NCBI GenBank assembly: GCA_963969365.1
Contig: OZ017750.1
Span: forward strand, 3,162,001 to 3,226,000
Reading direction: 5' to 3'
DNA length: 64,000 nucleotides
Origin: Asterochloris sp. CNOR1
Lineage: Eukaryota; Chlorophyta; Trebouxiophyceae; Trebouxiales; Trebouxiaceae
In this document: piece after piece, positions 3,985 to 32,570 of the stretch
Position numbering within the stretch: position 1 is the stretch's first letter
How the letters are laid out: every line of letters begins with the position of its first letter
Notes under the pieces: model-generated
Databases searched by the model: none
What the model was told of the DNA's origin: nothing
The model's input: only the letters and a program-made list of their open reading frames with translations
Translations under genes and position numbers: made by a program

Positions 3985-5221
3985 TCAGGCAGAGGGCTTC
4001 GGCTGCAGGCCAAAGCCCAGGTCTGACATGAGCACATCTAAACGGGCAGGGTCAGAGAGGTACAGGAAACCAACCTGCAAGGAAAGTGGCCAGCATCAAC
4101 TTGTGTCTAAGGAGTGCATAAATTCCACTGAAATCTGCTTGTGCCGGCTGCCCAAGCAGTTTCTTGCTCCTTGCTCTGTGCTCAAGACAGGCTGCCTAGC
4201 TGAGCGCAAAAGCTACAGAGACCCTGAGGCTACAGGCTGGTGCCACTCACCAGGCACTCAAGTGCAGTGGCATTGCGGTAGGTGAGCGTGTGGGCCCCAC
4301 TGCGGGACAGCCTCTTGGGGATGGTTATTTTGGCGTTCTTGCCCCACTTGATGATCTCGCGCTCATGATCAGTCAGCAAGGGAGTGGCCTGCAGCTGCTC
4401 CAAGTACCGCTCCTGCAGGGGGAGCAACTGCAGCGCTGCATTGGGGGCCTTTCAGCAGAGCAGCCTCATGCAGTGGGGCGCCCTTTGCTGCGTTAGATTG
4501 TGCCGGGGAGTGCCTCACGCAAGCCTGGGCCAGGAGCTACCGCATTTCCCAGGCCTGGCCCCCAGTAGGACCCTTTTGCATGGGCCCCGCATGGTGCGCC
4601 CAGTCGCAGGTGGGAGCAGCTTACAGGGTCTCCTGGCGGCCCAGGCCAAGAGGCTTGTGGTCACAACACCCCTGCGAAACTTGGAAGGGTGGCCATCCTG
4701 CGGCTTGTCACAATTTCACAAACCAGACGTCCGCCTGAGGTGCAGGCCTCACCTGGGACTCTGCCCGAACCTCACGAATGACTGCATTGTAGTACAGGCC
4801 CGGCTTCTGTGGCGGGTGAAAGTGCCGTCGTCGTGTGTATAGCTGCAGCAGTGGCAACCAAAGGTTGGTAACTGAAACAATCACATGCCGGGCAAAAGCA
4901 GGGCCTGCACACCTCCCAGACAGAGTCACCAATAAATGCAAGGGACACCGCGTTCCATTTGGCTCTTATTTCGCTTCCAGATAGAAGAGGTGAAGGAAAG
5001 ATGGTTGGTGAGGTCTCTGCAGCACCGAGAACAATAGGCTGGACAACATTCATGATACAGCACATGGCCCATGTCAATTTTAGCTTGCCTGGGCTGGCGA
5101 CTGTGCCAAATCCCTTTGACAGGCAGACAGCTCGTAGGCCGGATCTCCCTGGACACAACGCAGGTGCTCTGTGCCGGCAGGGGTGATCTAGCAGCCGCAG
5201 CTGCACTCTCGACATCTGCAT
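3985..5221 (-). CDS. Mini-ribonuclease III (single RNase III domain), probably plastid-targeted
   Basis: Four exons read 5' to 3' on the minus strand: 5221-4913, 4842-4753, 4412-4251 and 4074-3985. They sum to 651 nt, giving 216 residues plus TGA, with all junctions in phase 0. The domain is the dsRNA-cleaving fold of bacterial/plastid mini-III, which trims 23S-type rRNA ends and intron RNA. Visible signatures are LAFIGDSVWE (the family's LAYIGDAVYE box with the catalytic Asp), LYTRRRHFHPP, IIKWGKNAKITIPKR (usual RGRNAK) and ATALECLVGFLYLSDPARLD (usual TALEALVGYLYL). No dsRNA-binding domain follows, as expected for mini-III. The first 45 residues are Arg/Ser/Leu-rich with few acidic residues, like a transit peptide. 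The start is the ATG at 5221, 91 bp from the divergent start of the PKA-R-like gene. A short extra intron inside exon 1 cannot be excluded. Confidence 0.88.
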
Positions 5222-5312: not shown

Positions 5313-7620
5313 ATGCATGGGCATGTGAACCTGATCCTGCACCATCCCCATGGAGCCAGCTGCAGCTCGCACAAACACTTAAAAGATGCGCATGCACCCC
5401 TGGGTTTGGTAGCAGGCAAGGCAGAAGAGCAAGATGCTGTGCCGGAGCTTCCAGTCCAGACCGGGGGACTTGTGGAAGGCATGCCTGCCGGGTACAAGGC
5501 CAGGAGAAGGCATTCGGTGGGTGTCAGGTTGTAACGCCCGCCCGCCTGGCCGATGTTGCGGATGTCAAGCACCTCTGGTGGCGTGCAGGTCAGCGCAGAG
5601 GTGGCAAGCCTGGCCCTGGGGCAGCCAGTGCAGCTGCGCATGGTGGAGAAGGATGCTGCGGCAAAGGGGCGCATACAGGCTGCCATGCAGCACAGTTTCC
5701 TTTTTGCTGGTGAGGCTGGACCAACCTGCATGCTGATCCAGGCCTGGCCAGCATAGCTGTGCGCTCGCTGCATGCACTGGCCGCTTGTGCAGAGCCCTTG
5801 CGTGCGCAGGTCCTGACTCAGTCCCGCGCCTGCAGAGCTGGATGACACACAGCAGGCAGATGTGATTGAGGCCATGTTCAGGCGTGCCGTGAAGCAGGGC
5901 GAAGTCATCATCAGGCAAGTCCTCCATATGTGTGCTGCAGGAATGTGGTGTGCCTTGGCCTGTGGAAGCCTTAAGGTCTCGTGTCGCATCTAGCTCTGCT
6001 GCAGCGGAGAGTTGCAGGCTTGCAGAAACAGGCACAGGAGCTGGCTGGTGCACTCCACCCAGCAATCGAGCCTGCAGCGTGCAGAGCCGCCGCCATCACT
6101 GCAGGGGGTGTGCAATGCGGACCCTGATAGTCTACCAGACCCCTTGGTGCCGTGCTTCTCTGGACAGGGAGCGTGATCGTTCTGTGCTCCGCCTTGTGGT
6201 GTACGTCACAGACTGTTGTGGGAGTGTCCACGTCCTGCACCATGAGGTGCACAGCAGCCTCCTGTGCGGAACAGCTGCACACCTGCAATCCTGCGCCTGC
6301 AGGGAGGGTGAGGACGGCGACAACTTCTGGATGATTGAGAGCGGGATCTACAAAGCTGTGAAGCAGGCGTCCCAGGATGGGGAGCGCCTGCTGTTCAGAT
6401 ACGAGGGCAAGGGGGCGTTCGGGGAGCTGGCGCTGATGTACAACTGCCCGCGAGCGGCCACAGTGGTGGTGAACAGCTGGCCTCAAGCTGTGGTGCACTG
6501 TGGCTGCAAGGCCCACTGCAAGACTTCAGTGCACTTTTGTTGTGGCTCAAGAGCAGTGCAGGAGTCACTGGCCAGACCTGAATGCCGTAGATGTGTGGGT
6601 GGGGCACTCCTCATGGTCCAGGCAGGGATGCAATGCTTTCTGAGCTTCAGCAGACCTCTGATCTGGTCAGACAAAGGGTTGGCCCCATCCATATGTAAGG
6701 TAGCTGCACCCATTCAGCTGCTGCACCTTCTGCCAGCCTCACAGGTTCGTGGACCGTGCTGCAGGCCGAAGCGGAGGGCGTGTTGTGGGGCCTGGACAGG
6801 GTTACCTTCAGGAACATCATTTTGGTATCCACCATGCAGAAGAGGGAGCATTATGAAGAGACGCTGGCAGGCATGAGCCTGTTAGGGGACATGACGGCTG
6901 AGCAGCGTGCTGTCATTGCTGACTGCCTTTCAGCAGAGGTCTTCCAGGTCAGAGATGCACTCCTGAGCCTCCCGGTTGTGCACCTCAGGCAGCGCATGCC
7001 GGCCGCAACGGGATCAAGGCTGCCTCACCTGGCTGCATGCAACAAGCTCTTGTCTCCTGACGGTGATGTCAGTCATGCAGGATGGGGAGACGATCCTGAG
7101 GCAGGGCGAGGGGCTCACAAGCACATCCAAGTTTTATCTTGTGGAAAGCGGCACTGTGGAATGCTGGAAGGATTTCACAGTGAGCATTTGGCCCAGCCTG
7201 GCAGAAGCCAATGGGGCAAGCAAGAGCCACCTGCTGGCGCAATGCATGGTCTCCGAACCTTACCCTCTTAGCCTGAAATGGCGTGCTGAATGTTGCAGGG
7301 CACCAGAAAGCTTGTCAAGACCATTGAAGCAGGGGGTTTCTTCGGTGAAGTGGCCCTGGTCAAGAAAATTGACAGCAGGGCAGCAGATTGCATAGCTAAG
7401 GGGCGCGTAAAGGCAAGCTACTGTTTTCAAAAAATTCATATTGTTCAGGGCCGGTTCTGAGTTCCAGCAAGACCTGGTGCAGGCGCTGTCAATGGGACGC
7501 GATGCGTTTGAGAGACTCATGGGCCCGACAGAGCAGATATTGTCCAAGCACCTTGAGGAGTATGAGCGCATCAATGTAGCTGCCAGCAGCTCTGAAAGCA
7601 GTGCAGCCCAGGTGGTCTAG
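5313..7620 (+). CDS. cAMP/cGMP-dependent protein kinase regulatory subunit-like protein (two cyclic-nucleotide-binding domains)
   Basis: Eight exons: 5313-5516, 5589-5709, 5836-5914, 6303-6468, 6765-6947, 7081-7179, 7299-7406 and 7483-7620. They total 1098 nt, a 365-residue protein ending TAG. An N-terminal linker carries KARRRHSVSAE, the R-R-x-S inhibitor/substrate site that occupies the kinase catalytic cleft; here it is a serine, so the type that can be phosphorylated. Domain A has the phosphate-binding cassette FGELALMYNCPRAATV with its conserved Glu and Arg. Domain B has FGEVALVKKIDSRAADCIA, where Glu and Arg remain but the P-R-A-A-T core is altered. The C terminus (ALSMGRDAFERLMGP) matches the family's closing helix. 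There is no kinase domain, so the protein would act in trans on a cytosolic kinase. No dimerisation/docking helix is evident at the short N terminus. Intron 3 starts with GC (see findings). An upstream first exon is possible. Confidence 0.9.
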
Positions 7621-7707
7621 GACTGGCAGCGCTGCCACACTATGCAGCGCTACTATGGCTGGGCGCATGTGGCAGAGGCAGCCCGACAGCTGTGCGACAG
7701 CGACAAA

Positions 7708-10089
7708 CTAGTCAGTGGGCAGCTGTGCGGCCACCAGGGCTTGCAGTGCAGCCAGGCCGCCCCTCTTTTCTAGCTCAACTATCTTCTCTGCAGCTATGAA
7801 CGCATTGCTCTGCCTCTCAGCTAGCACAATTGCTACAGCTGCTGCCCGTATGCTGCCGCCTGAACAGCGCGCCAGGTCGAACAGATGGAATGACTCCATT
7901 TCAAGGGACAGCGCTGATGGATGCTGGGCCGCCAGCAGCTGTAAGAGGTCCTCATTCCTGTCGTCGAAATCTGTTGTTGACCGACCCTGCAAGCAGGCCG
8001 CCAGTCCCTTGTCAGATGGCTAGACTGTCACAGTGAGGACACACGTTAACTTTAGCAGCAGGTCTGGGCAGCTGCATTGCAATCAGACTCTGCAAGCAAC
8101 AGCATGCCAAAACGCTCAGATGGCTGAGTGCGGGGCAGCAGAAGTGGCTGCTGCCTTCCCACAAAAGGCACCACGCAGACTGGCAAAGTGAGCTGAACAG
8201 CACATCGTTCTGCAGCCCTCGTTGTAGCGCAGAGCCACATGTCATGCACAAGCAGCTCTGTTCACGGAAACATGCACGGGAGCAGTGACCTGCACCTGCG
8301 AGCTGTAGAAGCTGTCTGCTGACACGTTCAGCCCCTGCAGTATGGAGGTCTCCCTGCTTGCTGCCGCTTGAAGCTTCTCAAGTAGCAGCCCCGACAGCTC
8401 AGCATCGCTGGGGACAGGCTGGGAGATGATGTATGGCGGCCGAGTCCCCTGGCTGCCGGTGGTGGCTGCCCCATGACTGCTCAGGCGGTCGGCATCAGCC
8501 TGCTCTGTGCCCTGGCTCCCTGCCTCTGAGGTTTCACCCCGCGAGCCAAAAGCATCAGGGTCTCGCCTACAGAAGTCACATTCATGAGGACTTTGAACGC
8601 CTGCCTTTTAAGGGGAAGCCAGGGGAGGTTGTGCAGTGCCATCGGTGCTGTCCGGCAGGGCAGCAAGTCCTATAGCCATCACGCGCATGCCTGCATGAGG
8701 AACGCCTCCCAAGGCAGCAGCCATACATGCTGTGAGCAGTGGCGGTGTGCAGCCGGAGACTAGCTGTTCAACCCTCCACTCCACACTGGGACAGCTGACA
8801 CACAGCAATGCCTGAACTCTTGAAGATGTTGGCTCCCTCCTAGCTGCAGGTATGCCGACATCTGCCGCCCTGTGGCTGCAGCATGGCCACTGGCTGCAGG
8901 TGATCTGCTGCCAGCTATCTCTCAACCATTGCGGCTTGAGGTCATTGCTCTTGGATGAAGTCAATGCAGTTCCTTGGTTGGCACGGAACATGGCAGACGG
9001 GATTGTGAGCTTCACAGCACCAGCACACCCCTGGGCCAGCCCTGTACGCCTGCCTCAGGGACCCTCAGCCCACTCCCACCTGACGCTAATGGAGCCCTCG
9101 GTGGCCACCACCAGGCTGCCAAGGGATGCAGGCGGCTGCAGTCCGCCGCAGGTGCCCACCCGGACAAAGGCCATGGGGCCATCAACCACTGCCCTGCAGA
9201 AGCATGCACAACTGCCTGAACTTCTGGACCTTACAGCTGGGCTGGCAGGCTGTCCAGGTGCACCTTGAAACGCCTCCACCTGCAGTAGCATGTACATGTA
9301 GCAGAGATCAGCTTTCAGAAAAGGCATTCAGTCCAGCAGGTGTAAATCCTAAGCTTCACGTCTAGGGCTGTGCAGCAAGGCATACACAGCATGCAGCAGC
9401 ATGCTCTGTGCCAAGCTGCATACAGGAGCACATATTCTGGGATGGTAAAATGCAGCCTCTCCCTTTGCCTGCTGCTCTGCCAGTGCCCTGAGCTCACGAA
9501 CTGCAGGGTGCTTGTGGCTCTGAAGGCAGTGCCTGCCTCAATCTGCAGCATGCTCGGTGCACAGCATGGCTTGCCTGCATTCTCTCACCACGAAGTCCAT
9601 GTTGGCTGCCCCCATCAAGGTGCTCACAATGCTGACAGGTGTACCTTGAAAGCCGCCTGCAGCATGCGGGCCCACGATTAGAAGGCACTTGCACCCCTGT
9701 TCCTACACCTGACCGCATCAGCTTGCCCACAATGCTGACAGCTGTGTCCTGAACGCTGCCTGCAGCATGCGGACCCTTCCCGAAAAGGTGGCAGTCCCCC
9801 TCTGTGACTACAGACGTCAAGGGGCAGCCCTGCCAGTGTTGCGGAGCAGCTGGCGCTGCTCCAAAGAAGTCTAAGGGCACAGTTGTAGTGCTCCAGTCAT
9901 AGTGCTCCGATGTCCCAATGGTGGGCACAGGCCTGGTAGCATGGCCATGGCACCTGTGATGGTCAGGAAACCTCTGCCGGACTCCAGCTGGAAGAGGCTC
10001 TGCTGAGAGTCCAGCTCCTCAGCCAGAAGGATGGCTCGCTTGGTGCTTCCCACAGATAGGATCCTGTTGGCGACCTCCCCTGGCTGCAT
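7708..10089 (-). CDS. Uridine/nucleoside phosphorylase-like protein (PNP_UDP_1 family)
   Basis: Readable minus-strand exons are 10089-9954, 9656-9575, 9193-9080, a poorly resolved one or two near 8850-8820, one at about 8440-8296 and 7986-7708 (stop TAG). The family phosphorolyses uridine or related nucleosides to base plus ribose-1-phosphate. Signatures are GEVANRILSVGS (phosphate-binding N terminus), ESGRGFLTITGG, VRVGTCGGL (the conserved RxGTxGG strand), LNVSADSFYSSQG, FDDRNE and LSLEMESFHLFDLA (the ribose-binding ExE region). SNAFI near the C terminus also matches. The intron after DFVVREC begins GCAAGC and only this donor keeps the frame. A second partial copy of exon 2 sits in intron 1. 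I start at the ATG at 10089 because it directly precedes the domain; a 5' exon toward 10250 is possible. Confidence 0.82.
9714..9775 (-). repeat. Partial duplicate of phosphorylase exon 2 inside intron 1
   Basis: Read on the minus strand, an acceptor (gcatgctgcag) is followed by a block resembling the start of the true exon 2 (9656-9575): GSVQDTAVSIV against GFQGTPVSIV, after which the two diverge and a GT follows. About 55 bp aligns, including the acceptor. It looks like a tandem exon duplication in decay or a minor alternative exon. Confidence 0.6.
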
Positions 10090-10838
10090 ATGCAGGAGGG
10101 AGCACCATCTGCTGAGGGGACGCTTCAGAAAAGTGTGAGCCAGCAATGAGGAGAGTAAAGCAGTGTGCAGGCGTCAACAATTGGGTTGGTCTTGCAACTG
10201 ATGATGGTAGGGCTGACCACAAATGGCAGGCACGGTGCCATTGCAATGGCTCACCCTGGTTGCCAGATGATAGGTTCTGCCCTCGCTGTCCCGAGGAAAG
10301 TTTGCATCATGGAAAGATGTCCTTGGCTGTTTCACTGTCAGAGTAGACTCTGCTGAGTCCTCTGCCCTGACAATGCAGATCCTGCATCACAGTGGGGAAG
10401 GAATTTTGCAGCATGTCAGCAGAGTATGTGCAAAGGGATTTCCTCTGTTTGATAGGTTGTCTCCAGCTTGCTGTAGTCTCCTGGTTGCCTTGCAGAGACA
10501 ATCCAGGCGAGACTGTCTTCATCATAAGCATGAAATGCACCTGCAGGGTTTGACCCTGAAGCTCCTCCCAGCAGGATGAAGAACATTGCATTTAAGCTGC
10601 CGCAGATCTCTAAAAGGAGGGCGATCCATGGCGACTTCAAGCACACCACCTCGATGTGGTTTCCAAGCTTGACTTTGACCAACTACCAACTGCTGTGGTA
10701 AAAATTTGGCCTGTTTCGCAAAACCTTGCAAAGCCGACAATTTCAACATCTGTCTAAAGGCACCTGAAGCAAGAACTTAGGTGTTTCGTGTACTGCTGAT
10801 CTTGTCCCTTCAACCTGCTTGCTTCACTGTGAATCGTC
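10090..10838. promoter_or_regulatory. Divergent intergenic region between phosphorylase and formate dehydrogenase
   Basis: About 750 bp lie between two divergent start codons. Open frames exist on both strands (for example minus 10591-10307) but none resembles a known protein, keeps a coherent composition or joins to a neighbour. I read it as upstream regulatory sequence and 5' UTRs, possibly with a short 5' exon of the phosphorylase. No clear motif seen. Confidence 0.4.
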
Positions 10839-13800
10839 ATGAGGGTCATGGGCAGCTTTCGGCCAAGCCCCTGCGGGGTGCTGAAGGCTCAGAGAGCTGT
10901 CATGCAGCCAAGGCTGGCCCGCAGTGCCAGGCTGCAATGCATGGCACAGCAGAAGGAGAAGGTTGTTGCTGTCCTATACAAGGTGGGGCGAATCCATGCA
11001 AGTTCTATGAGCATGTCATGTTCAAGGTGTCTGCACAGAGCCTGTTGGCTGGCAGAGTGCCACATCGCTGTCAGGTGCTCCCTGGCTGTCATGGTGATGT
11101 CAACGTGCCAAGATGCATGCCTGACTGCCCTGTCGTCATCCTGCAGGCAGGGGAGGCTGCAGAGAACAAGGACCTGCTTGGCTGCGTGGAAAATGAGCTG
11201 GGCCTCCGCAAGTTTATTGAAGACCAGGTACGCAGCGCCTGTGTGTCTTGGCTCCCCTCAAGAGCAGCTTTGCTAAGAGAATCTCCTATGCAAACAAGTA
11301 AGCAGTTGTAGTGCCTATAGCAAGTGAATAAGTGGTACATCCTTGCTTTGCTACCTGCGGTCAGCATAGCAAAGAATGGTTTGCTGCATGCCCTCCGAGG
11401 GATCCTGCATAACTGGGCACCACCTCTTCAGCTGGGACATCCTCCTGTCATGTCGCTGTGGCTTGCTTTGTTCTGTGGTCAAGTGTAGCCATTGCTGGGC
11501 TGCATAGCAGTGGCTTGTGGTGCAGGGTCACGAGTACATTGTGACTGACTCCAAGGAGGGCGATGGCAATGAGCTGGACAAGCATCTGAAGGACGCCACC
11601 ATCCTCATCTCCACCCCCTTCCACCCAGCCTGTGAGTGTCACAGGCTGTGAGCGCGTTGCTGGATTGCTTGCACTGCCTTGGTACAGATGCTGCAGACCC
11701 CATGCACAGGCCCGCAAGCAGGCAACACTGTGAGCTCTCAGGAGGGGCCCTCCAGGTCCCTTTGGTCAGGTTGAGCCAACCAGCACTTGAGCTGTTGCCG
11801 CCATTGTGCAGCTGTGAGGCCCACTGCAGAGCCTCATCAAGCAGGGCTGAAGCCACCTTTTGCCTGGGTGCCTGCCTCAGCTCAGGCCAGCAGAGTTTCA
11901 TTGCATCCTGCTGGCCTCTGCAGACTTGACAAAGGAGCGTGTTGAGGCTGCCAAGAACCTGAAGCTCAGCATCACCGCTGGCGTCGGCAGCGACCACGTG
12001 GACCTCCATGCAGCGGCTGATGCCGGCATGACCGTTGCAGAGGTCACAGGTGGGCAGAGGCAGAGGACTGCTGGACTGCTCTGTGGAGGCCGCATGCAGG
12101 ACGGAGACTGCTGGGCGTGAGACCCATTATGGGCCATAGCTGAAGCGGCATGGTGAAGCACTCCTGGTAGTGAACTGCACGCAACCGATGCTGTTGCTGG
12201 TCAGGCGGGCAGTGCTGATCACCTGACAGCTGAATGGACGTCCACGGCAGGGCCGATCTGCCCCGACATCTGCCCGAGCCCATGCAGCGATTATGGCTCA
12301 GCTGCAGCTCAAGCCAGGCCCTGTTGAACAAGATGCTGCCCTCTGCATGCAGGCTCCAATGTTGTCTCAGTGGCTGAGCACAATGTGATGCTCATCCTGA
12401 CCATGCTGCGCAACTTCCTACCGGCCCACGAGCAAATTGCGTCAGGTGGCTGGGACGTGGGTGCCGCTGCCCAGAAGGCGTACGATCTCGAGAACAAGGT
12501 GGTCGGCATTGCGGGGGCCGGGCGCATTGGGCAGCTCACCATGGAGCGGCTCAAGGTGAGGCGAGATGTAGGGTTGAGTGAGGTGGGGCCTGTCAAGCTA
12601 CTGGCGGGCACATTCGGCAGCCCACAATGGAGCGGGTCAAGGTGAGGCTGGGAACTAGATGTAGGGTTGGGTGAGTTGGGGGGGGGGGGGGGGGGGGGGG
12701 GGAGGGAGACCCTGTCAGGCCACTGGCGGGTGCATTCGGCAGCCCACAATGGAGCGGGTCAAGGTGAGGCTGGGGGCTGCCAGGTCGGGGGCTCAGCAAG
12801 GCGTGTGTGGCAGCAGGGAGGCTTGGTGTGCATCAGCCTTAGGCTGCTGAATTTTGAGCGGTTCAAAAGTGAGACTTGGCACAGGCTGTTATGCTGAGCC
12901 ACTTGGATTAGGACTGCCAGAGGTGGCGCAGTGGCCTTGAGGCTTGCAGGCAGTGGTGTGCCGCAGCAGCCTCAAGCAGCTGAACAGGGAGCAGTTCAAG
13001 GTGCGGCTGGGGGCAGGAGTCGGGGGCAGGTCAGACGCTGAAGCTGCTGGGTTGCACGGGCTTCGTGTGGCAGGGAAGCATGGGTGCAGCCGCCTGGTGC
13101 AGCTCATCAGGGACTCACTTGACTGTGGTGGTGAGCATCGATGACCCACTGCGTCACTGCCCTTTTGAGGTCATGCGCAGCAACCTGGTCAAGGGCTGCT
13201 GGGCGCATTAACATATCCTCCCAGTAACCCCAGGCATCTCCCCGAGTGTGAGCCCACTGCCTGCAGGGCTTTGGCCTGAAGGAGCTACGATACTTTGACT
13301 ACAAGCACCTGCCTGAGGAGAAGGAGAAGGAGCTCAATGCCAAGTTTGCCGAGCTGGACGACCTCATCCACAATGCGGACGTGATCAGCGTGTCCCTGCC
13401 CCTAACCGACAAAACAAAGTGAGGAGGGATTTGTATGGTATTGCCTTGCCTTGCAGGGCAAAGATATTTCGGGAAGGACACCTGGCCAACATGTCTTGTC
13501 AGGGAGCTCAAATGATGTTCATGGCTGGCATCACTTCCTTTTCAATGCTTGCCTTCTGTGTTGCACATAGCCTCTGCTCAAGCATCAGCGAGGGGCTGTG
13601 TGGCCCTGGCTGATGTCCTTTGCACCATGTTCTGCATTGAGAGAGTGCCTCCACGTGTGTTCAGCAGCCAGTATTCACGTAGGAGTGTCAGCAGTCAGCT
13701 GTGAGCTGGCTAGTCTTGTAGTCACTCTCTCTGCACATATGACACAAGAGAAGCAGCATATTCTGGCACTCAAGCCTCCTCCGCAAGCTGTAGGGGGATG

Positions 13801-14531
13801 TTCAACGATGACGTCATTGGGAAAATGAAGAAGGGTGCCATTCTGATCAACACTGCCCGTGGCGCCATCGCTGACACAGATGCAGTGGCCAGGGCGCTCG
13901 AGTCTGGCCAGCTGGGCGGATGTGAGTCTGCTGCGGTGCTCCCATTGATCTTATGGCTGTTGGGGGTGGTTTGCTGCAGATAAGGAGAGCAGGAACTTAC
14001 TGCGGGACTCCAGGCAGCTTGCAGTGTTGACGTGCTTTGCAGGCCATCTGCTGCTGCTGCATGGGGCGCCTGAACAAAATGTGTTGCAATGCAAGAACAT
14101 AGGCAATGATGCTGAGGGACTGCCTGGCTGCAGATGCGGGTGACGTTTGGCCAGAGCAGCCTGCTCCCAAAGACCACCCCTGGCGAACAGCGTAAGTGGT
14201 GAATTCTCCTCGTTTAGTTGTTGTCTTGAGGGGTTGACCATTCCGATCCCAGATCAGTGAAAACAATTTCTGCCTGCAGCCCCAACAATGGCATGACCCC
14301 CCACTACAGCGGCACCACACTGGATGCCCAGGCCCGGTATGCAGATGGCACCAAGAAGATGCTGGACGCCTGGTTCAAGGGGGAGGCCTTTGAGGATAGC
14401 TGGTACATTGTTCGGGAAGGTGGGCCACTTCTGAGCAGGCTGCAAATGGCCATGTGGCTTTCTCCTGCAGCACTGTTCGTGACTGGTCTCTGCTCCCCTG
14501 TGCAGGTGAGTTGGCCCCGCAGTACAAGTGA
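10839..14531 (+). CDS. FDH: NAD-dependent formate dehydrogenase (plant/mitochondrial type)
   Basis: Ten exons: 10839-10982, 11147-11227, 11526-11631, 11924-12049, 12353-12555, 13267-13418, 13794-13921, 14134-14191, 14280-14419 and 14506-14531. They total 1164 nt, encoding 387 residues. The enzyme oxidises formate to CO2 with NAD+. Landmarks in order: VVAVLYK (N-terminal strand), [46 protein letters not shown], the Rossmann loop [13 protein letters not shown] ending in the NAD-selecting Asp, [14 protein letters not shown] with the catalytic Arg, [16 protein letters not shown], and [19 protein letters not shown] with the catalytic His. The first 40 residues are Arg/Ala/Ser-rich and acid-free, like a mitochondrial presequence. 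Intron 5 is long and full of degenerate copies of its own donor region. A zinc alcohol dehydrogenase lies two genes away; a shared C1/aldehyde role is only speculation. Confidence 0.95.
12590..13010 (+). repeat. Degenerate tandem copies of the exon 5 3' end and donor within FDH intron 5
   Basis: The true exon 5 ends near 12537-12555 (gggcagctcaccatggagcggctcaag^gtgagg). Similar blocks recur at about 12611-12650 and 12729-12770 (ggcagcccacaatggagcgg), with weaker echoes at 12855-12875 and 12985-13008. The first two retain a GTGAGG donor. The unit is roughly 110-120 bp and grows less similar downstream. Confidence 0.75.
12679..12702 (+). repeat. G24 homopolymer
   Basis: Twenty-four consecutive G in FDH intron 5, on the transcribed-strand complement. 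It could form a G-quadruplex in DNA or pre-mRNA, and its length is likely variable or error-prone in sequencing. Confidence 0.9.
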
Positions 14532-14827
14532 GCCTACCTCAGCTGGATGGAAGGGTACTCAGACTCTTCCCGGGAAACTCAATCCTGACCACGTAGGGTG
14601 GCACACCCCGCCTACAGCTTCCAGGCCCCTGATTGCTGATTTCACAGCCTCAGTGACATGATCTTAGACGAGTTGGACAAAGATACATGATGTTGTGATG
14701 TCGTAAACAGCTTGCACAAAATCAGATCAAGAACTTGGAATGACCAGGTAGATAGCACACTGGTGAGTGTCAATGACTGCACCGACATGCCTTGGATGGC
14801 CGAACCACAATGTGTAAAACCCTAGAA
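14532..14827. other. Convergent 3' region between FDH and the thioesterase
   Basis: About 300 bp between two facing stop codons. No gene is visible. A TGTAA pentamer, the usual green-algal polyadenylation signal, lies on the plus strand at about 14814-14818 and might serve FDH. Confidence 0.4.
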
Positions 14828-17303
14828 TCACAGCTTGGCATTTGCACCAGCCTGTTGTTGCTTCCCTTGAGGTTGTCCAGGGTATGGGGCGCCCCCCGCA
14901 GCGTACTCTGTGTGGCTGCCCAGTGCGATGAGCTCCTGACTGCTGGCATTCCTGCATGCGAGTCCAGTGGTGATCGCACTCAGCCCAGCAGGCAAGAAGG
15001 CCATGTAACACAGCTCAAACTCAGCTCTGACATCATTTGCCAGAAACCTGCAGAGCCAGGCTGCTTGAGGGTGGAACCTCACCTGAACTCGATGGCGGCT
15101 GAGGTCAGGGTCTTGCCCGTCTTCACCATACTAGCCTCACACAGCAGGTCCTCGCCCACAGGCAGGCTGCCACAGAACTGGACATCAATGCTGACGGTCA
15201 CGCACTGGCGCTGTTCCACAGTGGCCAGCACAGCAGTGGTGAGCAGGTCGACCAGCGCTGGCAGGACGCCTGGGTGCATCTGACGGCGGCTGTCCACCAG
15301 CCACTCCCGGACTGGCAGGACAGAGGAGCCGGTTCCTTGTGACATCTCCAGATCCTGCATGGAATGGGAGCTGGAAGGTGGCAGTGCAGGCATGCACACA
15401 GGGTTGGCATGGCAGAAGATGCTGACGTCAGGTCTCTGCGAGAGCAGGGCTGCTGGCAGCATTCAGGCCGCAGCACTGGGCACTGCAGCCATGCCTGCAA
15501 GACCTGAGCAGAGCTGTTGCATGCAGAGCAGAGCCTCCAGACGAAGAGCAGGTGCCCTCTGCTTGGCGCACTAAGACCCACCCCTGACGTCGGCGCCCTT
15601 GTGGTGGGTGCATGCCACAGCCGCACCTTGAGGCCCCAGCCCACAGTTGTATCCCAGTTGCGCGGCTCCTCTGGGGTAAACTCCCCAGCAGTCTGCGCAG
15701 CTGCAGCCTGCAGCGCCTGGCCCGCTTTCAGCGCCTGGCGGTCCACTGCTGACCTCGCGTCACCGCCCTGTTGGTGGCCATCTGCTTGGCCTGCTGGACC
15801 TGCAGTCTGGGGCTGCTCCTGGCTGCCGCTGTCATCAGCGTCGCCAGCAGGCTGGCTCTGGTGCACAGGCACAGCCTCCCGGCCTGCCTGCTCAGCTGTG
15901 CTGCTGTTGGGATCTCTGCCATTTGACCCATCCTGCTGGCTGCCAGCCTCTGCAGGCTGCTGAGTCTCAGCTGGGCCCGCTGTGCCCCCCTCCCCGCCCA
16001 TCTGGCCCAGCATGACCTCAGCGCGCTGCCAGGCAGCAGCGGCTGTGGCGGTGAGAGCCTCCCGCGCTCGCTGCAGCCCCCGCCGCGGGCTCATGTTGTC
16101 GCCTGAGCCATCTGCTGCCGCATCCTGTCCCTGGGTAGCCTTGAAAGGAGGGGAGGTGCCTTCAGACTCCCCACCTCCAGACCTGCTGCCCTGGCCCGGC
16201 AGCCCAGCCGCGTGCCCGCTGCTGCGCATCACCTGGAGGGCCTGCATGCGAGCGGCAGCAGCTGTGGCAGCCACTGCCTGCTGGGCGCGCTGCAGGGCGT
16301 CTCTGCTGCTGGAGGCCGCAGCAGACAGTGCTGCAGACACGCGGGCTTGCAGGCGCGGAGGGGTGAGCTCTGTGTACAGGCCGCGTGAGATCAGGCGCCC
16401 GCTGTTGCTGTTGATGATGCGCACCTCTGCTGCGGAGACGCTGCCTCCAACTGCGGCAACCATGGGTGGACATTACTGAAGTTGCAACACTACAAGCTGA
16501 TGTGGGATCGACTTCCAGGCAGATAGCTGCAAGGTGGGCAGGCAGCATGCAACCTAGCGGCAGCTTGGACTACACAATGATCTCCTGCATGCTAACCAAG
16601 TTGGCTGGTGTGCCCAGCACCTGAGCAATGAAGCACGGAGCCATGCACTGTTGGGCTGCAGCGAATGTCAAGCACCATTAGTAACGCATCTTACCTGCAG
16701 CTACATTGGCCTCGATCTTCGCCATGACGCCGCCAGGCATTGCACTGAGGCACTCCAGGTGGCAGCTGACAGCAATGCCAGAGCTCGCACCCACAGTCTC
16801 AAGCGCTGCAGCAGCAGACAGTGAGGGCTTGAGCATATGGAGGGGCAGCTCTAGCTGGACCAAAGGCTTCGCTCCAAAGCTTGGCATGTGTGCTGGGTCT
16901 GCTATGAGTCACCTGTCCGCCCCAGGAGGCATGTGAGCGAGCCCATACAGCCTCCATTCAGTCCGCCATAGTTGTTCTGCAGCATTTGGGACACTCATGT
17001 GGAAACAGGAAATCGCACTGCATGGATGCATGCCAATGCAAAACCACCCTGAATGGCCATTGTTGAGCAGCTGAGGCTGGTGCTTCAGCAAATCTGCAGC
17101 TGGTGTGAAGTAACGATTGATGCTGGGCTTGCCTGCAATCTGGGAGAGACCCTGACTTCACAGGTGCACTGCCCGGCACCAGTTTTGATCGCCTGAAGCC
17201 CGAAAATCGCTGCAAAGTGCTGTGTGCTTTCGGGATTGAAGGTATCGCCTGCTTGCCCCACCCATTGGTGCAGCAACTCCTTGGCAGCTTGTGAAGTGCC
17301 CAT
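14828..17303 (-). CDS. Double-hotdog acyl-CoA thioesterase-like protein with a long low-complexity linker
   Basis: Six minus-strand exons: 17303-17133, 16976-16913, 16805-16695, 16450-15627, 15354-15083 and 14942-14828. They total 1557 nt, 518 residues, with consistent phases. The first hotdog domain (about residues 1-150) has the PaaI/ACOT13-like order: IKTGAGQCTCEVRVSP, the turn NNYGGLNGGCMGSL (usual N-x-x-G-x-x-H-G-G), then MPGGVMAKIEAN and RLISRGLYTEL. A second hotdog (about residues 385-505) has HPGVLPALVDLL, VTVSIDVQFCGSLPVGEDLL and LIALGSHTEY. A 200-residue Ala/Gln/Ser/Gly-rich linker lies in between. In domain 1 the usual catalytic HGG reads NGG, so activity or substrate is uncertain. 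Intron 1 begins GCAAGC. The start ATG at 17303 is 125 bp from the divergent ADH start; no transit peptide is obvious. Confidence 0.8.
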
Positions 17304-17428
17304 CTGAGCGGTCAGCGATAGCCTGGATGCCTTCAGGAGTGCGAAGTTGCATGTAAATGTCAGACTGGCTACGACCTACTTTTGATTGGGCTGAATAAGC
17401 ATCTGGAATAGCATCTGCAGCTTACATC
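17304..17428. promoter_or_regulatory. Compact divergent promoter between thioesterase and zinc-ADH genes
   Basis: Only 125 bp separate the two proposed ATG codons. No TATA box or recognisable operator is evident. Co-regulation of the two genes is possible but inferred only from spacing. Confidence 0.45.
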
Positions 17429-20400
17429 ATGCAGGCTGTCCGCAAAGCTGGATCTCATGTGGTAACACTTGCAGAGGGCCAGCATGCGCTTCTATCCCAA
17501 AGCACAGCATGGCTTGGGGCTCACAGAGGTTTTGCAGCAGCACAGTATGATCCAGAGGGCCAGATGTCTGCAGTCACTTTCCTTGGACCCAGGGACATTC
17601 GTGTGACCAAGAAGCCCATTCCAAAGCTTGCATCCCCAACGGTGAGAAAGGTGGCAGAGCCAGCCTGCACTCAGCCCAAGGCTTGCACATAGAGGCTATC
17701 ACTTTCCCAACAACAATTTCGTGGAAATGCAATTTAGTGTTGACTCCTCATGCCATGCTCTGCAGGACGTTGTTGTGCGCACATCTATGGCCAGGTAGCT
17801 CTGCCAAAGTGCCACCTGTGCTGTCTCAGCACAGAGGTGTGCAGGATGCTGTGCAAGCTCTGTGAACCAACCAGCAGCGCTATGCATGCTACAATGCCCA
17901 CAAGTGTGCATGCTGCCACATTTGGCAGTCAGGCCCCGGAGGTGTGCAGTCACCACGCGTGAGAAAATTGGTGTCTGGCCTGCAGCATATGCGGCAGCGA
18001 CATGCACCCCTATGCTGGCAGAGGCGTGCCCCTGGACTCTGGCATCACATTCGGCCACGAGTTCACAGGTCAGGTGGTGGCTGCAGGCTCAGAGGTGAGA
18101 GGGATGGCTCCCCCCAGCAAAGTGCAGTTCCACGCCATTGCCTTGCTCTTATGCTTAGCAGTGAACTGCTGTTGTGGGCACCTATGCCCTGCATGGCTGT
18201 TGCATGCACGCTCGTGCTGCCGAGCTCCGGCTCAAGCTTGCCCATGAGGGGCTGCACTGCTGCACAAAGGCATGGCACCCAGCTCACTTTCGAAGCTCTC
18301 CGCTGCAGGTTAAGACAGTGAAAGAGGGCAATCGAGTGGCTGCCTCCTTCACAGCTCAGTGCGGCTGCTGCTGGCACTGCACACACGAGCTCACCTGCCG
18401 CTGCCCTCATGGCGGGCGCTTTGGCTGGATTGTCAAGGGCCAGGGTTTTGAGGGCTCCCAGGCAAGGCTGCCAAATGTTGCTGTGGCCATGTATGGCTGA
18501 TTGCCTTGCTGACTGTGCGTTGCACGTCGCAGGCTGAATTTGTGCGGGTGCCCATGGCAGATACAACTCTCCTGCCCACCCCTGACAACGTGACTGATGA
18601 GGAGGCACTGCTGCTGGGGGATGTGCTCACAACAGGCAAGCCTGTGGGCTGCAGCCCCCTTCACCGCATGTGCCCCCACTCAGCAACCCACTGAGCGCTT
18701 GCACCAGCATTGCACTGCCTCCTGATCTGCTGCTTTGGACTGTGTGCTCACCTTGAGAACAGTCCAGAGCTGCAGCCTGAAGCGATGGTGCTGCACAGGC
18801 TGGTTCTGCGCCATCAAAGCCGACATTGCTGAGCTGGCCAAGAGGCACCCTGGGGAGGGCATTGTGGCGGGCGTCATTGGTTGCGGCCCCGTCGGGCTGA
18901 TGGCCATCCTGGCTGCCAGGGCACAAGGAGCCACCAAGGTGAACTCTGCTGCCATCCTGTCAGCCCCAACAACTTGTGAAGCACACAGCAAGAGAGCAGG
19001 AGCAGGGCAGCAATCTGCTGCCATGGAGTTTCTCTAACAGGAGACCAGCGCCTTCTCCCCAGCAGCTCCCATCAGGCAGGTGTTTCTGCATGCGCCCGGC
19101 AGCAGGTCCCCGCTCATACACAATTTGCCATGATGTGAGATACCCTGCAGTGCCTGGCCTGGTGGCCTTTGAGAAGTAGGAGCCAGCTGAGGTACCAAAA
19201 AAGCTGTTGGACTCCTCCGGCACCAAATGCCAATCCACATGGCCGGACTGCAGGTGTTTGCCATCGACACCGTGCCTGAGCGCCTCAAGCTGGCAGCTGC
19301 CCTGGGCGCCATCCCAGCTGATGGCAGGGACAAGCAGGGGGTGGTCACTGCAATCAAGGAGGCCACTGATGGACGAGGGGCAGATGCTATGCTGGAGGCA
19401 GTGGGGGCCCAGGGCACAGTAGCACTGGCCTTTGAGCTGCTCAGGACTGGAGGTGAAGCTGTGCAGTGATGACCTGCAAGCCTGGCACAGGTTTGGATCT
19501 GGAGGGCAATCCCTGGCATCTGCTCCCTGGATGTATTTGAGTGTGCCTGTCTGCCCAGCAGCATTGTGCTAGGGGAGCAGCAGGCAGTATAGCAAGAGGC
19601 TGCTAGCAGCAGCAGCAACTCTGCGGCTGGACTGACCCTTTCTCAGAGGGTTGCAGTTTCTGTGCAGGTGTGATCTCATCTGTTGGTCTTCACACAGATG
19701 ACAAGTTCACTGCTTTCACACCATGGGTGAGGATGCTCATGTTCCTGCCTCGATGAAGTGGCTTGACCTCACTGCACTCAGCTCCTTCTTGACACCCAGT
19801 CTGCTGCCACAGGATGGCTACAACAAGCAGATAACGTATCGCAATGGTGAGAGCGCTGCCAGCAGCAGCTCTGCTCCTGCTGTTTGACACCCTGCTTGCT
19901 GCCCTGCTGCTGCTGCTGCCTGCATTCGGGCAGCGTGAGTCACGAGCAGTGCTGGCCCCAGTGCCTAGCCTGCAGGCAGATCTGTGTGATGCGTAGCACA
20001 AGCAACACGTAGCACGCGCAAGAAGCGCAAGCAAAAACCACTTGTTCTCCAATGTGCTGCCGACCGCATGTGTTGCTGCTGCGGTGCAGGCCGGTCCCCT
20101 GCCAGGGTGTACATGGACGACATCATGAAGCTGCTGGAGGAGAAGAAGTGGGGAGACCCCTTCCCAGGCTCCAAAATCTTCAGCCACAGGGTGAGGCCTT
20201 ATCTGCTTGGGCCAATCTGTTTTTCTTGCTGGTGCCACTCACTGCTGAGTCCTGGCATGTGAGCTGTGCTACAGGTCGACATGCACGATGAGGCGGCTGT
20301 GAGGAATGCCTACAAAATCTTCGAAGGTGAGCTGGCAGTTGTTGAGCCAGCCCATTCTGATGCAGTTGGCAGATGGGATTTCATGGGGCCCTCCATTCTG

Positions 20401-20968: not shown

Positions 20969-23900
20969 ATGCCGGTGCAGATGTCAACAGGTGAGAGTGC
21001 GTTGCATGCTGCGATGGTGCATTAGTGAGGCAACCTGAGTGTATATTGTTGTAGGGGCAGTATGCGCAGCACCGCACCTAACTGGCAGGGTGCCTGGCCC
21101 ATGATGAAATGAACTGCTGATCCCTGCATGGCGCGCTGTGCAGAAGACCAGGTGGACCGCGCTCTGCGGCTGTACGCCAAGAGCCTGGGCCTGCCCGAGG
21201 CTTATGCAAGTGCTCTGCACCTGTACATGGGCAATCAGGCCGACACTGAGGTGGCCCTGGACATCATCGTGGAGCCCAGCAGCTACAGTGGCAGCATCGC
21301 AGCGTTAAGCGATTGGCAATGTGAGTAGCCATGCAGCTGCCCTGTTGTGCTGCTCTGTGTGTACTTGTGGTGGGCTGGCCATGGCTGTCGTGAGCAGATG
21401 TGCGGAGGCAGACCTCTACATGTGGCCAGCTTGCCTTGATTCCCTTCAGGCATGGGCAGATGCTTGCCTGCTTCCTCTGCCTCCCCTTCTGCTGCAGGCT
21501 GTCTACCTCATGTGTCTTGCTGCTGCCAGGTCTGCAGATGCTAGACCTTTTGAGGGACCCCAGCCAGCTGTCCCTTGAGGTGGCTGTGCTGCCCTGTCTG
21601 CAGATGCTGCAAGTGTTGAGGGGCTGATGGCAGAGATGGGGCATGCAAGTGTTGAGGGGCTGATGGCAGAGATGGGGCGGCGTGATGCTCAGCGCATAGT
21701 CAGGGGCCTCACCGTCATGGGCAAGCAGCCAGTGGTGCTGCTGAGCAAGGTGCTGGCGGCCTTGGAGCCGGGGCGACATGCAGGTGGGCAGTACGGGCAC
21801 CCTTCTCATGCAGTGTAGTGTCCCGGGGTGGCACCTTGCGGAGTGGTCTGCCAGGTCTGCTGTGTGTGCTCATTAGGCTGCATGTGATTATGTGACTTGA
21901 CAGGGCATCATGTGCCCCTGGTGCCCACTTGCTACATGGCGCCCTGCAAGCTGCACAGGCCTCCGCATGAACAGCTCCTCTGTGCTTGGGCATGGCTGTG
22001 CTGTCCACTCGCTCTGCCAGGACTCTCCAGACAGTCTTGCCAAATGCCAGAGCCTGATTTGTGTGTCCTGCAGGAGCAAAGCACGCAGTGATCGAGCAGG
22101 TGCGGGCGCCAGTGGCACCGCCCAAGCAGCTCAAGGCCTCCGGTGAGTCACCACTCGCTCAACGAGAGCTGTGCAGGGCTCTTTACCATCTGCAGGGCCA
22201 CTGCCCATGTGCATGGCTTGGTGAGATCTTTGCCGCGAGTTGTGCCAGTGCCAGGTCCACTGGTGTCGTTCTGCATGCTCTACAGGTATGTCAAACACCC
22301 AAATGTGTTGGCTTGCTGCACGGCAGGTCACAAAGAGGCGTCCAAGAGGCAGCAGACAGCTGCCACAGGGCGCCCAACTGCTCGCGGCAGGGTCATCACT
22401 GCTTCCAGGAAGCACGCTGTGATCGAGCAGGTGCGGGCACCAGTGGCACCGCCCAAGCAGCTCAAGGCCTCCGGTGAGTCACCACTCGCCCCTGAGAACA
22501 AGTACTGGCACGATGATAGCTGTGCAGGGCTGTTTCCCATCTGCAGGGCCACTGCCCAGATGCATGGCTTGGTGAAAGTTTTGCCATGAAGTGTGCCAGT
22601 GCCAGGTCCACTGGTGTAGTTTTGCATGCTCTACAGGTATGCCAAACATGCAAATGTGTTACCTTGCTGCACAGCAGGGCACAAAGAGGCGCCCAAGAGG
22701 CAGCAGATGGCTCCACAGGGCGCCCAACTGCTCGCAGCAGGGTCATTACTGCCCCTAGGAGATCTTGGACGCTGACTCACAGGACAAGCAGCACACACAA
22801 ACAGATCCAAGCAGGTACACTTTTGACAGCCTGCTGGGGTGCCCCAGATGCAGCTGCAGCCAGCCACTGCTACCCTTCAAAGCCTGTGCTGCTAAGTTCT
22901 GCCTGGACATCTTGCTGCCTCTGGTGCCTTTCATTGGCCTTCTGGATTGCAGCAAGGTCCTTGTCTGCAGCCACTGCTGAAGACGTGGAGCCACCTCCCT
23001 GCATGCGCTGCCCACCTGCACCATGCTGATGTGCCTGCAGGGGAAGGCTTGGCTGCTGGCAGGCAGGGCCCTGCTGCCCAGCCCTCGCAAGCCAGCCCCC
23101 ACTTAGCAGCCAAGAAGGTACCAAGACATCAGGAGCTCTCGGCCAAGCAGAAAGCAATGTTTGACCAGGCTGCAGGTGGGGCTCAAGCACAGCTGTCTAC
23201 CACAGCATGGCACCTGCAGCTCTGCATGACAGAGCCTCGGGGCAGGCAGGCATTCCATGTGCATAACGGGCTGTTGGCCCCATGTGCATGATGACAGTTG
23301 GCTCCATGTGCATAATGGGCTGTTGGCTCCATGTGCATAATGGGCTGTTGGCTCTTTGATGTAGACTTACTGTCTGAAGAGGCCTGCTTCATCTTATGAT
23401 TTAGGCGCATCACCAAAGGCAACATGTATGCTGCTGCAGCTGCCGTTAATTAGCTCATTGCGTCTGCGGCGCCCACTGACGTGTGCTGCACTTCAGGCGC
23501 AGGCGTCAAGGCGGACGTCAACCCTTTTGCAGAACTGTCTGATGAGGAAGACGGTGCCTCTGGCACACAGACAGGTGGGTCACTGTTGTTGACTATGCAA
23601 ACTGTTCCCAGGCTGTATGCATGATGCTTGCACTGCCAGGCCCTGTTCCCCATATGAACCGGATCTGCATGTGGACTCCCACGTGCTTCCAGCGCTGTTG
23701 AGTAGCTGTGTCATTGGTCAGCCAGGCATGGTGGCAAAGTGCCTCTGGTGCCGCCATCCTGTGCAATCTAGCCCTAGAAGTGTCAACAGGGCGGCTACAT
23801 CAAGGAAATTAACATAAATGACCTGTTGTGACAGTGCGTGCCCTTCACAGCTGCAGGTGCTGAGGAGGGCAGCCATGCCACAGATAATGCTGGCAGCTGC

Positions 23901-24743
23901 AGCAGCACTACCGTTGCAGGTGCGGTGGCAGAGCCTGCAACTGCAGAGCCAGGGGCAGAGCCAAGTGTTGCTGTGGAGGAGCTGGCCACTGCCTGCAGCA
24001 GTGGCCCCAGCGCGCAGGCAGCAGCACAGGCTGCCATTACCCTAGCTGTCGCTGAGCCTGTTGCGATCCCCTTGGTGCTGAGCAGCGCAGCGAGCAGCGC
24101 TCCCACTGCTAAGGAGGCTGAGGAGTCCAGCAGTCAGGCCGCTGGCACCTTCAACGCTGTCACCGTCCCCTCAGCAGCGCAGCGCACAAGAACCCCTGGC
24201 AGCCAGGCTGCCAATGAGCCTTCTGCTGACCATGCAACTGCTCCTCCAGCTGCTGGCACGTCTGAGGGCCCAGGCACCAGCTCTGGCAAGGGGCCACTGA
24301 CCAGCCCTGTGCTAGAGACAAGGATGATGCGGCCAGGCAGCCGAAGCCCTGCCCACTCGATGCTCGCCGGCATCAGCAAGGAAGGCAGTGAGGCTGCCAG
24401 CAGTGTGGCTGAGCCTGCTGCGCAAAAGCAGCGGCCGACTGCTGCTGAGGCCACTGCCACGCCCGCTGAGGAGCTAGTGATCGACATGGCAGCTGCCGAG
24501 CACGCTGAGCGCCAGCCAGTCAGAGCAGCAGACACAGCAGGCGTCGGCACACTGCCAGCGCAGCAGGACCCAGCTGGGGGTGGAGGCAAGGCCAGCCTCA
24601 CAGACGCTCGGGGTGCCACCTCAGAGCCTGCCACCACTGGTGGTGACAGCAGGCCCAACCAGGCGACAAGCAGCCCGGCAGCTGGTGCTGAGCACCACTC
24701 TGGAGGGCCTCTCCCCGATGCTGAATGGATTGGTGACCCCTGC
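20969..24743 (+). CDS. Unrecognised tandem-unit protein, unit 1 (conserved head plus Ala/Ser-rich tail)
   Basis: First exon 20969-20990 (MPVQMST) splices in phase to 21144-21320 (EDQVDRALRLYAKSLG up to ALSDWQ). Later pieces include a segment at about 21607-21780 (RRDAQRIVRG, VVLLSKVLAALEPGRHAG), an exon at about 22080-22140 (KHAVIEQVRAPVAPPKQL), a repeat of it at 22410-22471, an exon near 22760-22820, one at 23041-23175 (AAKKVPRHQELSAKQK), one at 23498-23572 (VKADVNPFAELSDEEDG), and a long Ala/Ser/Pro/Glu-rich exon from about 23864. That last exon runs open into the head of unit 2. A 33-bp in-frame tandem duplication is seen at 21609-21676. I do not recognise the family. Composition suggests a folded head and disordered acidic tail. 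Whether units 1 and 2 form one protein or two is unresolved. Confidence 0.5.
22082..22740 (+). repeat. Tandem duplication (about 330 bp) of an exon-intron block inside unit 1
   Basis: The block from the KHAVIEQVRAPVAPPKQL exon through the following intron and the HKEASKRQQ exon occurs twice in succession (about 22082-22411 and 22412-22740). Unit 2 carries it only once (about 25637-25990), so the duplication arose after the two units separated. Confidence 0.7.
23255..23355 (+). repeat. Short tandem repeat, unit about 28 bp
   Basis: Four imperfect copies of a unit built on catgtgcataatgggctgtt separated by ggctc. It lies in an apparent intron of unit 1 and is absent from the matching place in unit 2. 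Confidence 0.8.
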
Positions 24744-27700: not shown

Positions 27701-28387
27701 GTCCAACATCAACACAGGGCATGAGGAGAGCAGCAAGTCTGCTGCTCAGTCTGTTGCCGACACAGAGGCTGTGATGCCGAAGCAGCGCCCCTCTCTCACC
27801 AAGGGCAAGCGCAAGGCAGGCAAGACTGGCAAGGGCAAGCGCAAGGCAGGCAAGGGAGCCAGCAGCCCTGCCGGTGAGCCCACTGCCACGCCCCCTGAGG
27901 AGGTAGTGATCGACATGGCAGCTGCCAAGGACATTGAGCGCCTGCCCGTTGGCGCAGCAGATGTGGCAGGCGTGGGCACACTGCCCGCGCAGCAGGGCCC
28001 AGTTGGGGATGAAGGCAAGGCGAGCCTCACAGGCGCTGAGGCTGCCACCTCAGAGACCGCCACCATTGATGGTAACAGCAGGACCGACCAGGCCACAAGC
28101 TGCCCAGCAGCGGGTGCTGAGCACTCCCCTGGAGGGCAGCAGTCTGCCAGACTCAAGGATCTCACCTGCAAGAAGGCAAACAGCAGCATTCATGCTGCGT
28201 CTCCCAGGCAGCTGACCTCCAACAATGATGTGGCTGATGGCCCAGCTGCACATTGCAAGCCTGCCGGCAAGCCAGACGCCGCCACCCTGAAGCTGCCAAG
28301 GGTGGTCAACATAGTCACCGAGGGGTCTCACCACCCCACAGCCAGGCCAGGCTGCCAGGCAGATGTCAGCCCACAGACCACGGGTGC
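24744..28387 (+). CDS. Unrecognised tandem-unit protein, unit 2 (paralogous copy of unit 1), 3' end replaced
   Basis: Begins at the ATG of MARCSEEKVDRAL, which lies in an open frame continuing from unit 1, so it may be an internal repeat or a separate start. Head and downstream exons parallel unit 1 with about 80-90 percent similar residues: 24757-24937, about 25200-25365, 25640-25703, 25903-26037, 26210-26330, 26615-26690, then an Ala/Ser/Lys-rich exon from about 26921. Differences: the donor after LEPGRHA is lost and the frame meets TGA at about 25364; the unit-1 exon duplication is absent; the donor at 26038 reads GCAAGT where unit 1 has GTACAC. The tail contains two adjacent KGKRKAGKTGKGKRKAGKG blocks, a nuclear-localisation-like basic patch. 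At 28388 the sequence switches abruptly to the inverted duplication, so the native 3' end is probably missing. Likely decaying. Confidence 0.45.
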
Positions 28388-29941: not shown

Positions 29942-30859
29942 TATCTCCGAGATCTCCTTTGGTAGTAGCTGGCGGCATGAGCACAATGCTGTTCTGTCAT
30001 TTCAGCACCCTGTACATGCCCGCATGCCCAACGATCAACATTGGCAGCCTTTGCATGTTTTGCCTGTTGCCGCTTCTCGGCTGGTAAAATCCTTGAGCAC
30101 TGGATATATACACCTTCTCCCTTCTCAGCAAAGCTGACGAGCGAGATCAAGACATGCCTCGTCAAGCAAACAAAATGGTCAGGGTGAATATTGCACTCTG
30201 AGACAACCAGGTGGCTGCAATATATGTTGCTCCCACAGTCTGAAGTCTACCGTGTGCGCTCCCGCAGCCTGTTGCGTTTTGCTCCAACGCTCTAGAGCTG
30301 GTGGCTTGAACATACTAAGGCTATGTTGCTCCCACATTCTGAAGAATTCATGAAAGAAGTTGATGAGCTTCCCTCCTGACCGACACCCCATTCTCAGCTG
30401 GCCACCATGCCATACCGCTGCCCTGCCTGCCAGCACTTCAGTGAGCAGCGGCCACACTTCGTGGCACACATGAAGCCGCGCAAACGCAATTGCAAGGGGT
30501 GGGACCGCTTGACAGACGCTGGGAAAGACCCAGACAGCAACCGCATCACAAAGCAAGAATATGAGGAGGCACTGGCTGAAGCAAAGGCGCAGAAGGTGTG
30601 TGAGTGGCATTCCCGCTCACCAAGGGCCTTGGCTTCCGCAGGCCCACATCTCTCACTGCCCTGCGAAGGAAGCGGGAGGAGGAGGTTTAGGCCAAGCTGA
30701 GTGCTCAGGCATCAGCAGCTGTGTCAGAGCCATCACGCATCTGCTTCAAGGACATTGTGGTGAGCAGAGGATGTACTTTGTTACGTGGGCAGGTGAGTTC
30801 TGCAAAATCCCAAAAGCCAGGGAGGAGGGGCTCATGTCATCACGTTATTGTCCTGCTCT

Positions 30860-31640: not shown

Positions 31641-31809
31641 TGTGTTGTGGAAGCTGGCATTCCGCTCACAGAGGGCCTTGGCTCCAGCAGGCCCACAGCT
31701 CTCACTGCCCTGCAGAGAAAGCGGGAGGAGGAAGTCCAGGCCAAGCCGCGTGCTCAGGCGTCAAGCAGCTGTGTCACAGCCATCACGCATTCGCTTCAAG
31801 GACATTGAG

Positions 31810-32410: not shown

Positions 32411-32570
32411 ACAGAGCTGGCTGCTTTCTTAGAGCAGGCTACGATGAAGTCTAAGCAAGGCAGCAGCGAGAGGATCAATGGCAACATTGAACTCTTACTT
32501 AGAGCTTTTCAATCTCACTCCATAGGAAAGCAGGCCATGATGAAGTCTAAGCCAGGCAGCGGCAAGAGGC

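Follow-up and report, generated by a model that had tools for sequence, protein, structure and literature searches.

Six probable GC-AG introns with a common AG/GCAAG donor in intron-rich genes of a putative green alga

Intron-rich genes and six introns with GC donors

The DNA considered here is a 64 kb stretch of contig OZ017750.1 (hereafter the window; 56.3% G+C), whose first 20 kb are occupied by intron-rich genes on both strands, and in four of these genes alignment with homologous proteins places six introns that begin with GC and end with AG. Gene identities were taken from Pfam families and PDB homologues. On the plus strand lie a PKA regulatory-subunit-like (PKA-R-like) gene (homology-supported part 5650..7620, approximate ends; Pfam cNMP-binding, PDB PKA regulatory subunit; six introns, two of them GC) and a zinc alcohol dehydrogenase (ADH) gene (17564..20300, approximate end; Pfam ADH_N and ADH_zinc_N, PDB 4cpd; nine introns, two GC). 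The minus strand carries a uridine-phosphorylase-like gene (7600..10100, approximate ends; Pfam PNP_UDP_1, PDB 6k5g; four introns, one GC) and a thioesterase gene with two hotdog regions (14900..17420, approximate ends; Pfam 4HBT, PDB THEM2; four introns, one GC). Two further genes have GT donors only: a formate dehydrogenase (FDH) gene on the plus strand (homology-supported part 10950..14421; PDB FDH; eight introns), which served as a negative control, and a mini-ribonuclease III-like gene on the minus strand (3985..4850, approximate ends; Pfam and PDB matches; two introns). One further gene lies within the first 20 kb.

The PKA-R-like gene holds GC-AG introns at 5915..6302 (plus strand, 388 nucleotides (nt), phase 2; CAG/GCAAGT..TGCAG, the slash marking the splice site) and at 7413..7482 (plus strand, 70 nt, phase 0; AAG/GCAAGC..TGCAG), the latter absent from the original prediction. 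In the first of these, a GT and an AG each lie 4 nt downstream of the GC donor and its acceptor (5915-6306, plus strand); splicing at both would swap one residue, E to Q, and keep the frame. A third intron interrupts the phosphorylase gene at 9194..9574 (minus strand, 381 nt, phase 2; CAG/GCAAGC..TGCAG), and a fourth the THEM2-like thioesterase gene at 16977..17132 (minus strand, 156 nt, phase 0; CAG/GCAAGC..TGCAG), the latter having the weakest homology support of the six. The remaining two are found in the ADH gene, at 18462..18532 (plus strand, 71 nt, phase 0; CAG/GCAAGG..CGCAG) and 18636..18798 (plus strand, 163 nt, phase 1; CAG/GCAAGC..CACAG). All five donors of the original prediction are present at the positions and on the strands it gave, and the consensus AG/GCAAG that it drew from them extends to the sixth, at 7413. 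The acceptors are all CAG (TGCAG in four introns, CGCAG and CACAG in one each), the spliced proteins are colinear with their homologues, and retention of any of the six brings in an in-frame stop; four of the six lengths are not multiples of three.

Homology support and frequency of the GC donors

Donors were placed with a purpose-written spliced aligner that sets PDB homologues against the window, prices all 16 donor dinucleotides equally and requires AG acceptors. The main run added a generic matrix for the donor and acceptor flanks that is blind to positions +1 and +2, and in it the thioesterase region was narrowed to the first hotdog part. The homologues used were three of 184 for ADH, one of 20 for the phosphorylase (UPP), two of 85 for PKA-R, two of 164 for FDH, two of four for THEM2 and two of five for mini-RNase III (one in the 24-setting test described below).

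With the flank matrix, every homologue picks GC at each of the six sites: 5915 (2/2), 7413 (2/2), 9574 on the minus strand (1/1), 17132 on the minus strand (2/2), 18462 (3/3) and 18636 (3/3). When 24 settings were compared, 12 of which drew their flank matrix solely from GT introns, GC was chosen in 72 of 72 runs at 18462, 64 of 72 at 18636, 24 of 24 at 9574, 48 of 48 at both 5915 and 7413, and 42 of 48 at 17132. A run stripped of flank information picks GC at 18462 (3/3), 9574 (1/1) and 7413 (2/2). Altogether the blind run with the flank matrix placed 32 distinct donors, comprising 22 GT, seven GC (the six and one at 7216) and three others (CC at 17660, TG at 19454 and CA at 7221). In the FDH control the GT-only score equals the 16-dinucleotide score with both homologues (989.0 and 968.0), whereas restriction to GT costs the other four genes 16-88 half-bits. 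Forbidding a single GC donor and allowing only GT elsewhere costs 26-39 half-bits at the ADH sites, 50 at 9574, 36 at both 5915 and 7413, and 16-18 at 17132.

The homology-supported introns of the six genes amount to 27 with GT and six with GC donors, a GC share of 6/33 (18%, confidence interval 7-35%). Three GT introns (7180, 19453 and 19727) were placed from GT-only runs, and excluding them gives 6/30. Three others were added to the count, at 4250 and 15082 (both homologues) and at 4752 (one of two homologues, the other choosing a TC donor at 5264), while a CG donor at 15757, seen in one thioesterase run, was not counted. The original prediction had called five of roughly 35 a high share, and the improved count upholds this, lying well above 1-2% in the window; the genome thus seems to tolerate GC donors, as had been proposed.

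A test independent of homology in its placement of introns points the same way. We used a simple gene-finder whose training included no GC donors and whose coding statistics came partly from homology-picked exons. At loose settings it merged everything in the window into a single spurious gene, and at tighter settings the exons were usable with the genes still fused; its single calls are unreliable, and it was used for comparison between dinucleotides only. Allowing GC donors raised the log-likelihood (lnL) by 22.3 units, against 6.1 for the best of 14 other dinucleotides, and the best GC share on a coarse grid was 15%. The motif AGGCAAG occurs 39 times in the window against 25.7 expected, a count reached by one of 100 shuffles, and this by itself proves little.

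Donor form, U1 pairing and the weighing of alternatives

The GC donors are set apart by their flanks. AAG occupies positions +3 to +5 in all six GC donors and in two of 24 GT donors (Fisher p = 5e-5; first 30 introns), the GT donors being mostly GTG (G at +3 in 19 of 24). Put differently, GC accounts for six of the eight donors with a full flank (G-N-AAG) and for none of the 25 others. AG/GCAAGT is the usual donor form of GC-AG introns. The original prediction held that AAG maximises pairing with U1 and so offsets the C; the enrichment of AAG stands, but the modelled duplexes of the GC donors are still weaker on average, at -6.3 against -8.3 kcal/mol for GT donors (p = 0.012; standard U1 end, pseudouridines left out). 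Their individual values, -4.8 to -7.4 kcal/mol, all fall within those spanned by the GT donors (-4.6 to -11.6 kcal/mol); in a fixed register the gap is smaller (-5.3 versus -6.1), and Watson-Crick pairs with U1 number 7.3 of 11 for GC and 6.5 for GT donors (p = 0.06). In the same model, GC donors given a U at +2 would reach -9.5 to -12.1 kcal/mol, among the strongest, and GT donors given a C would fall to a mean of -4.5. The AAG flank would thus compensate the C at +2 only partly, leaving these donors on the weak side of the working range. A U1 gene was not found within the 64 kb window with Rfam at gathering scores, and the Rfam and tRNA scans of the window gave no match at all.

We consider it very likely that these six are real GC-AG introns of the U2 type, and that they belong to nuclear genes of a eukaryotic organism, most probably a green alga, which uses GC donors above the usual 1-2%. 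All six combine GC and AG ends with a strong flank and a non-U12 character, matching the U12 donor at one to three of seven positions, with a best U12 branch match of 5/9 to a 9-letter motif. Several observations pull against this reading. The run without flank information misses GC at 18636 (0/3) and at 17132 (0/2, in a wider region with both hotdog parts), and at 5915 homology alone leads both homologues to a frame-keeping GT-AG intron, CAA/GTCCTC (5919)...GGAG/, with its acceptor 4 nt further on. Forbidding a GC donor with any dinucleotide permitted elsewhere costs just 8-26 half-bits, the cheapest losses being 8.0 at 7413, 10.9 at 18636 (one homologue) and 11.8 at 9574. The thioesterase homology is weak (PDB E 5e-7 to 3e-6; NCBIfam score 23.5 bits, below the cut-off of 36.6), its GC intron needed the narrowed region, and forbidding GC there mainly removes the first exon from the alignment; the Pfam 4HBT match is to the second hotdog region, and the GC intron sits in the other. 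A U2-like CTNAY branch motif is found near the 3' end in only one of the six GC introns, the search covering these six. Finally, the sample is small and comes from a single window, and the case was raised since GC donors had been noticed, so that 18% may be inflated and the true share may be lower.

The GC calls might be an artefact of eye or alignment, with nearby GT donors being the ones used. Besides the preference of homology alone for the site at 5919, GT donors at 18477, 9562 and 5930, 12-15 nt downstream of 18462, 9574 and 5915, also keep the frame, and the assertion of the original prediction that the frame closes only with GC is accordingly too strong for these three introns. They fit worse, however, costing 36-50 half-bits and giving proteins longer than the homologues. 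Across all the GT rivals the cost is 16-50 half-bits, their flanks score -15 to +2 where those of the GC donors score +14 to +17, and the matrix learned from GT introns only yields the same choices, which makes an artefact very unlikely. Regulated splicing, in which GC donors would mark alternative or retained introns, was suggested by the original prediction and accords with links between GC-AG introns and alternative splicing summarised in PMC3488318 and PMC7242645; the GT donor and AG acceptor of the PKA-R-like gene, each 4 nt downstream, would indeed give an in-frame variant. Yet the six introns sit between conserved protein segments where retention gives stops, their donors carry near-perfect rather than weak flanks, and the GT rivals picked in GT-only runs are poor donors. 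We regard such a role as unlikely, the sequence of the window having offered no support for it.

The data come from a single assembly, and sequencing or assembly errors could have replaced the T at position +2 of the donors by a C. Such errors should strike all donors equally, but all six GC donors fall among the eight of 33 with AAG at +3 to +5, an outcome with a chance of about (8/33)^6 = 2e-4 for a class defined post hoc, and we take this explanation to be highly improbable. Some green algae are reported to have many minor introns (PMC10639083), which would lend some plausibility to removal of the six by the minor spliceosome; the low matches to U12 donor and branch motifs given above leave us with almost no credence in it. 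Genuine U2-type GC-AG introns remain the reading that we adopt below.

Several further GC donors were not accepted. That at 7216, proposed by the gene-finder and picked by one of two homologues in the run with the flank matrix, competes with ACA/GTGAGC at 7180; if it were counted as GC, the share would be 7/33. The gene-finder also proposed 694, 5499 and 50457, which lie outside the stretches with homologues. The original prediction had raised 26038 as a possible sixth case, and this is not established: the site lies inside a predicted intron of a tandemly duplicated gene, as does its paralogue at 22815, which reads AGCAG/GTACAC, and in the two copies one reading frame is open in both, with single-base indels separating them. 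The duplication itself (21098-28137) involves a low-complexity-rich gene, with 75-91% identity and a spacing of about 3-3.6 kb; the product predicted from the second copy matched no Pfam family.

Other features of the window deserve mention. At about 12640 and 12762, the FDH intron (12556-13266, plus strand) carries partial repeats of the upstream exon end plus donor (ATGGAGCGG..CAAG/GTGAGG-like), apparently the product of splice-donor duplication. The FDH protein scores highest with three PDB chains, at 461, 452 and 452 bits; these are plant enzymes, two of which carry a mitochondrial label, and the other chains listed reach at most 401 bits; four FDH loci in the viral collection are 53-54% identical and were left out of the analysis. 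In the phosphorylase gene, two similar tandem copies of a stretch around VSIV(S/G).LM are seen by eye at 9560-9810 (minus strand), with the conserved NMDFVVREC following only one, and this arrangement suggests an exon duplication. In the thioesterase gene, a 424-codon open stretch (15201-16472, minus strand), partly low-complexity and alanine-rich, separates one hotdog region from the other. The region 28388-64000 contains inverted near-identical copies (28388-30592 versus 54275-52065, 97%; 30589-32570 versus 42401-40420, 99%) together with more copies of about 210-860 bp, and probably represents one or more large mobile elements; near 63 kb a tyrosine-recombinase-like stretch was noted by eye only, Pfam giving no family for the predicted product. 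A eukaryotic relative of the contig was not found in viral_contigs (exact exon pattern, FDH, PKA-R protein and alignment, repeat pattern) or in genome_contigs (PKA-R alignment, repeat pattern).

A further GC-donor-rich lineage

Neither GC-AG introns nor GC-AG-rich algae are new. The six introns share their GC...AG ends with the GC-AG introns of the major spliceosome in plants, animals and fungi, and differ in frequency, at 18% of 33 against an average of about 1.2% in plants (PMC6310983). Among algae, shares of 2.7% in Micromonas RCC299, 7.7% in Chlorella sp., 22.2% in Micromonas pusilla and 39.6% in Aureococcus have been reported (PMC3033335). At least six GC donors in 33 would be expected with a probability of 2.5e-6 at 1.2% and 0.038 at the Chlorella sp. 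rate; the 22% of M. pusilla fits our count, and the 40% of Aureococcus seems too high (P of six or fewer = 0.0075). The published algal rates are transcript-based, whereas ours is derived from homology in one window. What we describe here is probably one more lineage rich in GC donors. We found no paper joining GC-AG introns, Trebouxiophyceae and splicing, and a GC-donor rate was not found in passages of the Coccomyxa genome and Auxenochlorella papers. Frequent GA donors in the copepod Eurytemora affinis and in Oikopleura, for which a variant U1 has been proposed (PMC7072748), are likewise lineage-specific departures from GT, but here only GC is clearly favoured.

The origin of the very high GC-AG shares of Aureococcus and M. 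pusilla has been called an enigma, and the putative U1 RNAs examined in the same work have a normal 5' end (PMC3033335). In that study GC-AG abundance was tied to high genomic G+C, weakly so outside three species, and the three GC-AG-richest species were those with the three highest genomic G+C values, 69.5% to 65.9%. The share is similarly raised here at a G+C of 56.3% (a value for the window only), and with 56% set against about 66-70% in the three richest species, we argue that G+C pressure alone would not be a full explanation. The moderate G+C, and the dominance of C among full-flank donors, are the less expected aspects of this case.

We propose the following account of how such donors might arise and persist. 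The six introns would be removed by the major spliceosome, as most GC-AG introns are spliced by the U2 spliceosome (PMC7072748). A T-to-C change at intron position +2 may persist where the rest of the donor (AG/G_AAG) pairs fully with U1, because the pairing that is left falls inside the range of the ordinary GT donors of this alga; most simply, C at +2 would be tolerated only where the remaining donor is complete. Near-neutral drift together with a mutational or gene-conversion pressure towards C would then suffice, and a regulatory role would be unneeded. A bolder and rather doubtful extension is a donor code of two classes, in which +2 may be any pyrimidine if the rest is complete, so that weaker-flank donors keep T (mostly of the GTG type) and full-flank G-Y-AAG donors mostly have C. 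Under such a code, at moderate G+C, donor strength would be held in the middle of its range and GTAAG donors largely replaced by GCAAG.

Gene prediction restricted to GT donors would give wrong models for four of the six genes checked here by homology, and annotation of this alga therefore needs a GC donor model. Should the rate hold genome-wide at about 56% G+C, high G+C would be weakened as the sole explanation of GC-AG-rich algae. If it is true that most full-strength donors are GC, this genome would let one ask what purpose the U-A pair at position +2 serves.

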